NCBI GenBank assembly: GCA_020052615.1
Contig: JAGVOT010000112.1
Location: 1-46,082 of the forward strand
From: Nitrospirota bacterium
Lineage (GTDB): Bacteria; Nitrospirota; UBA9217
Direction of reading: 5' to 3'
Length of the DNA stretch: 46,082 bases
Position 1 is the first letter of the stretch. The number at the start of each line of letters is the position of its first letter. The position numbers and the translations under genes were made by a program. The notes under the pieces are model-generated. The model had not been told where the DNA came from. It saw only the letters and a list, made by a program, of their open reading frames with translations, and ran no database searches. Shown one piece after another: positions 1,337 to 1,639 of this stretch.

Positions 1337-1639
1337 ATGGACAGGAAATGGATGGTCTTGCCGGTAATGGTGCTGACGCTGATCGGGACGGTCGTTCTCT
1401 CCGCCATGACCGCTCAAGCTGATATCGGGGACGCAACGGTCGTCTTCGGCGTCACCTGATATGACGTCGGCAAGGCGGCCCTGGAAGGGCTCCCGGGAGT
1501 GAAGAAGGTATCGTCAGGATGGCGCGGTCTCATGGAGGTGAACACGGTCGTGTTCGATCCCGCCAGGATCACCGTGGAACAGATGGAAGAGGCGTTGAAG
1601 CGGGCGGGGACACACCGGAAGACGTTTAGGGACCAATAA
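1337..1639 (+). CDS. Putative selenoprotein: exported HMA-fold protein with in-frame UGA (Sec41)
   Basis: Read through the TGA at 1457-1459, this frame gives 100 residues. A signal peptide (residues ~1-28, ending TAQA-D) is followed by one heavy-metal-associated (HMA/MerP-like) domain. The part after the TGA is plainly [10 protein letters not shown], then [22 protein letters not shown], matching beta-alpha-beta family spacing. The UGA codon lies 13 residues before the G of LPGV, exactly where HMA proteins have the second Cys of CxxC; the first Cys position is Gly38, giving GVT-U. A start with RBS-like GGGGAAGAG precedes ATG 1337. The frame stays open to a TAA at 1637 and the downstream codons are well conserved for the family, which argues against decay. 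A hairpin suited to a bacterial SECIS starts 18 nt after the UGA. Alternatives are a nonsense mutation or a sequencing error in a Cys codon (TGC/TGT). Confidence 0.68.
1477..1491 (+). promoter_or_regulatory. Candidate bacterial SECIS hairpin
   Basis: GCCCT (1478-1482) pairs with AGGGC (1486-1490) around the loop GGA, with an added G-T pair at 1477/1491. The apical loop begins 23 nt after the UGA at 1457-1459 and opens with G. Bacterial SECIS elements lie inside the coding region just after the UGA, with a short stem and a G near the start of the loop, so the geometry fits. A short GC-rich hairpin also arises easily by chance in GC-rich DNA. Confidence 0.5.

Follow-up and report, generated by a model that had tools for sequence, protein, structure and literature searches.

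A predicted selenoprotein family encoded beside methionine-sulfoxide reductase genes in Nitrospirota and other bacteria

The open reading frame at positions 1337 to 1639 of the forward strand (+) in a 46,082-nucleotide stretch of DNA from a Nitrospirota bacterium (contig JAGVOT010000112.1; the whole stretch is called the window here) almost certainly encodes a true selenoprotein. Comparison with its relatives places the predicted protein in a family in which selenocysteine (Sec) dominates, and there are strong indications that it acts in the cell envelope together with methionine-sulfoxide reductases (Msr). This selenoprotein family is absent from the catalogues that we searched, namely a 2026 list of 119 families, NCBIfam and Pfam.

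Results

A preliminary description of the window had noted a single frame running from ATG 1337 to TAA 1637-1639 and interrupted solely by TGA at 1457-1459 (+), and translation bore this out. With the TGA read as U, the protein has 100 residues, Sec at position 41 and zero cysteines. A ribosome-binding site, GGGGGGG (1325-1331, +), is seen before the ATG, and residues 1-28 (1337-1420, +), ending in AQA, form a putative signal peptide, with cleavage judged by eye from the hydrophobic N-terminus and the AxA site. Hydrophobic leaders are also found in relatives of the selenoprotein.

The machinery for Sec insertion, to which the preliminary description had pointed as a check, was found in the window's own genome (G000; 3.99 Mb, 98% complete), which encodes a SelB of full length (score 384 bits, cut-off 242) and carries two tRNA-Sec genes detected by ARAGORN. 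SelB was present in all 33 family-carrying genomes tested. The two tRNA-Sec genes of G000 are clearly different, being ~60% identical (G000:C50:31653-31747, L008, and G000:C130:47997-48087, L010); the first is identical in G002, G001 holds a 93% relative of the second, and the pair may reflect contamination or two tRNA-Sec types. The same genome also encodes a classical seleno-MsrA with the motif FAMGUFWG (G000:C30:15770-16081; L066, 1435-2259, -), with MsrB just upstream. This is a separate, independent selenoprotein, and such proteins are also found in G022 and G014.

A single-query scan of the genome contigs returned no homologue. Searches that read through the TGA recovered a 63%-identical copy in G013, whose TGA falls at the equivalent codon, as well as one with Cys in G012. 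A profile made from a three-row alignment, in which TGA was treated as a residue, was then used on GTDB species genomes and gave 25 loci, 24 of them with TGA in the family motif; the G013 copy (L029) reads Y-G-V within the motif, and the 25th locus (L047) is truncated or chimeric. When two phyla were searched with profiles, strong matches came from 7 of 396 genomes in the phylum to which the window belongs and from 10 of 395 in that of G015, and G495 yielded an extra, eroded TGA copy. A plasmid search found no homologue. In total, the family has Sec at 31 distinct loci, Cys at one (L024) and Ser at one that is much diverged (L091), so that related genomes do have Sec, and in one case Cys, at the UGA column, as the preliminary description had anticipated for a true selenoprotein. 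The 31 loci that keep the TGA span Nitrospirota, Desulfobacterota and Myxococcota/'Deltaproteobacteria'. One family member, L051, comes from a culturable bacterium, Desulforhopalus sp. IMCC35007. A gene tree, for which few columns were available, nests the Cys and Ser forms within the Sec group, with support that is not strong.

Residues F37, V39, U/C41, Y42, G45, K46, A48, L49, E50, G54, E67, N69, D74, L87 and T92 are invariant in a 26-row alignment; position 42 is F in two members found later, giving the family motif F-x-V-x-U-[Y/F]-D-x-G-K. The mature domain contains no other Cys in 33 of 33 cases. One copy, L092 (G495:C1:307581-307814), keeps UYDPGKAALEG and the hairpin core beside an intact MsrAB while the remaining domain is eroded, and it looks like a decaying gene.

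A bSECIS-like hairpin follows the UGA (1475-1493, +), with the core GCCCU-GGA-AGGGC at 1478-1490. The elements described earlier from the sequence were all located, with GCCCT at 1478-1482, GGA at 1483-1485, AGGGC at 1486-1490 and a distance of 23 nt from UGA to loop, and the hairpin fits the geometry of the published bSECIS model (PMC13188914). Its folding energy of about -12 kcal/mol is no better than that of shuffled sequence when the single sequence is considered (z = 0.40), and an Rfam search gave a chance miRNA match only. The case for Sec therefore rests on comparative evidence. Among 31 Sec genes, codons within the hairpin are fixed (Ala+7 is GCC in 29 of 31, Leu+8 is CTG and Gly+10 is GGG in all 31), whereas outside it the codons after the UGA vary synonymously nearly everywhere, Gly+4 and Gly+13 using all four codons. 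Over the 8-bp stem, 88.8% of cells are paired; sliding it by 1-3 columns leaves no more than 58.8% paired. Two-sided changes occur at three stem pairs. The Cys-form gene has ACG where the Sec genes have GGG, and its stem is lost. The hairpin is thus conserved across homologues, in its fixed synonymous sites as in its pairing, and comparison indicates that the UGA would be decoded as Sec by SelB and tRNA-Sec through an in-gene bSECIS. We consider the frozen hairpin and the pairing of its stem decisive for this predicted decoding, short of protein chemistry.

A reading with no selenoprotein made, in which TGA 1457 would be a genuine stop codon, a sequencing error or the mark of a decayed gene, could draw on the failure of the lone hairpin to beat shuffled sequence, on the decay of L092 and on the truncated or chimeric L047. 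We regard it as extremely improbable: the codon is TGA at 31 loci and never TAA or TAG, the protein is conserved on both sides of it, and synonymous-site fixation, stem pairing and the presence of SelB together refute it. Pseudogene, sequencing-error and TGA-as-Trp readings were also rejected because the column holds Sec 31 times, Cys once, Ser once and Trp never. The selenoprotein proposed in the preliminary description is therefore upheld by the host machinery, the homologues and the hairpin alike.

We examined the genes around 33 distinct loci (the window, L024, L029-L046, L048-L053, L075-L077, L087, L089, L090 and L092). The window begins within a histidine kinase gene (1-828, +; partial, identified by NCBIfam histidine-kinase matches). 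By tblastn, homologues of the kinase were found beside L030, L032, L035-L037, L039, L040, L043, L044, L049 and L052, and about a dozen loci have such a homologue upstream. Directly upstream of the selenogene, translation shows a small exported Met/Lys-rich protein (963-1271, +), which could be a sacrificial oxidation target, a scavenger or a copper binder; a counterpart adjoins the G013 selenogene (L023, 1845-2123, -). Directly downstream lies a gene for an exported MsrA-MsrB fusion (1686-2798, +; Pfam PMSR 3.6e-62 and SelR 1.5e-48, with NCBIfam matches), which joins a GCFWC-type MsrA to a one-Cys MsrB.

MsrA and/or MsrB occurs within ~2 kb on the same strand at 20 of the 33 loci (the window, L024, L030, L032, L035, L036, L037, L039, L040, L043, L044, L046, L049, L051, L052, L053, L075, L077, L089 and L092). 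Since the genomes carry 0-3 MsrB genes each, such adjacency would be expected by chance at less than about 1% per locus. Where a single Msr type was detected nearby it was MsrB (L032, L035 and L044), and at L032/L088 the Sec domain runs on in frame from a TAT-signalled MsrB and has no signal of its own. All 24 MsrBs collected have no Cys beyond the catalytic one and the CxxC zinc pairs, and are hence of the one-Cys type. At L030 (4388-5580) the selenogene is followed by MsrB and then by a seleno-MsrA, placing two selenoproteins in one Msr cluster, and in G124 a YHS_seleno_dom protein (NF041384; L075, 1058-1366, -) is encoded between the selenogene and MsrB/MsrA.

A TAT-exported molybdoenzyme of the SorA/MsrP type (~216 residues, PF00174) replaces or accompanies Msr at seven loci (L033, L042, L044, L045, L048, L050 and L087). 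It sits immediately upstream of the selenogene except at L044, where a radical-SAM gene and MsrB separate the two. Four of the five MsrB-less genomes have the molybdoenzyme beside the selenogene (p = 0.004, uncorrected for relatedness). The molybdoenzyme has an LLICPG motif and scores far below the SorA, SoxC and MsrP cut-offs; it is possibly an undescribed subfamily and may be a methionine-sulfoxide (MetO) reductase. Neither Msr nor molybdoenzyme was found nearby at 7 of the 33 loci (L029, L031, L034, L038, L041, L076 and L090).

Structure prediction with AlphaFold (model m9c776efc14df) gave a confident beta-alpha-beta-beta-alpha-beta domain behind the hydrophobic leader (encoded at 1433-1627, +; block-mean pLDDT of at least 95 for residues 31-90), with a ferredoxin-like fold resembling both MerP/HMA domains and the MsrA core. 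The top Foldseek match was MerP (1osd; E 5e-4, TMt 0.80, rmsd 1.8), and plant MsrA (2j89) stood at rank 37 (TMq 0.55, rmsd 2.0). Profile-profile comparison with hhalign gave 97.5% for HMA, 96.9% for the N-terminal core of MsrA and 95.4% for MsrA against HMA, these values coming from single comparisons and not being database E-values. The Sec aligned with the catalytic Cys of MsrA and with the second Cys of the HMA CxxC motif, the latter being where it had originally been placed. The fold and the profile comparison speak for the 'well-kept HMA domain' of the preliminary description, but that wording was too strong, as a Pfam search for HMA (PF00403) gave no match whatever to the window protein.

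The first Cys of the CxxC metal motif is absent from every family member. Its replacement by Gly, as first described, holds for the window copy (position 38), but relatives have Y, A, G, H, E, Q and other residues there. A GxxU family motif was accordingly rejected; because the family varies at the first CxxC position, GxxU is peculiar to the window copy and its nearest relatives. With that position variable and the mature domain devoid of other Cys, the predicted Sec site can be classed neither as a CxxC metal site nor as a GxxU motif kept by the family.

These features bear on a reading of the protein as a selenolate metal chaperone or scavenger of the MerP/CopZ type, which would bind Cu(I), Hg(II) or Ag(I) and shield Met-rich envelope proteins from metal-driven oxidation. 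MerP/HMA proteins (PF00403; PDB 1osd, 1afi) are the best matches in fold and sequence, and are likewise exported with a ferredoxin-like fold whose second metal-Cys position corresponds to the Sec. A copper-oxidase-type gene and a Met-rich protein are encoded near the G013 copy, the kinase has a weaker match to metal-sensor kinases, and copper stress in E. coli has been connected to periplasmic Msr repair (PMC9302797). Unlike MerP, however, the selenoprotein has Sec for Cys and no second thiol, and its neighbours are mostly Msr or molybdoenzyme genes rather than mer or cus genes. We consider a metal-binding role quite unlikely.

The resemblance to MsrA raises another alternative, in which the protein would be a minimal MsrA-type enzyme whose Sec attacks methionine-S-sulfoxide or peroxide. 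Glu67 would then be the catalytic Glu, and the selenenic acid would be recycled by external thiols. MsrA itself relies on a catalytic Glu residue. The Sec occupies the position of the MsrA nucleophile and is followed by Y/F much as in the C-F of MsrA, the profile similarity covers the first ~75 residues of MsrA, the family HMM matches MsrA at 4.9e-10, and the fusion of MsrB to the Sec domain mirrors MsrB-MsrA fusions. The invariant Glu67 has the spacing with which the catalytic Glu of MsrA precedes YDP (E-x6-D-P), which is no more than suggestive because HMA domains often carry Glu there too. Against this, the selenoprotein is half the size of MsrA (PF01625) and has neither the GGxxxNPTY loop nor the C-terminal half, where the remaining active-site residues of MsrA lie, MerP is nearer in fold, and a full MsrA is also present at most loci. 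The Pfam match to PF01625 (13.9 bits, E 0.065) falls below the cut-off of 23.7 bits. The MsrA motif G-[C/U]-F-W is absent, with x-U-[Y/F]-D in its place, and the protein is distinct from the true seleno-MsrA of the same genome (G000:C30), known seleno-MsrA having GUFWG. A minimal MsrA thus appears unlikely.

No family like this one was described in the 2026 review that tabulates the 119 prokaryotic families, Pfam has no family model for the window protein, and no model in NCBIfam release 20 scored above its cut-off. The nearest were NF041383 (41.2 bits against a cut-off of 275, E 1.6e-10) and NF041115 (32.4 against 95, E 7.5e-8), and membership of both was rejected. NF041115 (UxxU_metal_bind, a metal-binding selenoprotein) is also a small HMA-like selenoprotein with a partial profile match, but has UxxU where the window family has a single U. 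NF041383 (VPGUxxT thioredoxin-like (seleno)protein type 2, OS_HP5) contains a related domain at profile positions 142-211, which matches MsrA as well; the match is confined to this domain of a 287-residue model, whereas the window family consists of a lone 70-residue domain. Selenoproteins without Cys homologues may be filtered out by existing finders (deep-Sep, 2025; PMC12013277), and this reliance on Cys homologues may explain the gap in the catalogues.

Discussion

The protein is exported, carries one selenol and no thiol, and accompanies two unrelated sulfoxide-reductase folds, and a role in envelope MetO redox chemistry is for these reasons its best reading. With a domain about equally near to the MsrA core and to HMA, and with Msr-linked neighbours, such a role is likelier than metal binding. 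To this extent the initial suggestion of a redox site rather than a normal Cu(I) site stands, although GxxU is not the motif that defines it. We propose, with a probability of about one half, that the protein works in the periplasm, through its single selenol, as a redox partner of methionine-sulfoxide reductases and probably of MsrB. An external selenol for MsrB is favoured because MsrB is the sole Msr neighbour found at some loci, is the partner in the fusion with the Sec domain, and in every case collected is of the one-Cys type that needs an outside reductant. One-Cys MsrBs are reportedly reduced by selenols in vitro, in work attributed to Sagher et al. in 2006.

In the mechanism that we infer, the redox group would be the lone selenol, placed at the N-terminal end of helix 1, and the Sec protein would serve as an external resolving or reducing selenol for one-Cys MsrB or MsrAB. 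The selenol would attack the Cys-sulfenic acid remaining after MetO reduction, forming a selenenyl-sulfide between the Sec protein and MsrB, which another envelope thiol system would afterwards re-reduce. In genomes where the molybdoenzyme occupies the place of Msr, the protein may have a related donor or accessory role. Points that run against a reductant are the seven loci with neither partner nearby and the unusual demand that one reductant serve both a thiol enzyme and a molybdoenzyme, given that E. coli MsrP is served by a membrane protein, MsrQ. The E. coli MsrPQ/HprSR system resembles the present one in pairing exported MetO repair with a two-component system (PMC9302797), but has no selenoprotein and supplies MsrP with electrons through MsrQ. 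The broader proposal, that MetO repair in the envelope has a dedicated selenol donor in the form of a protein, a one-Sec HMA-fold carrier serving both MsrB/MsrAB and molybdenum-type reductases, is one that we offer tentatively, as possible but doubtful. If true, such a donor would represent a type of reductant so far undescribed for either thiol- or molybdenum-type sulfoxide reductases.

The bacterial selenoproteome gains a nearly pure Sec family, of a kind that is easily missed. The likeness of its domain to both HMA and MsrA bears on the kinship of those two ferredoxin-like families. The family also connects selenium, by way of two reductase types that are unrelated, with methionine repair in the periplasm, makes testable how exported one-Cys MsrBs are re-reduced, and likely gives selenium a new job in repair of the cell envelope.
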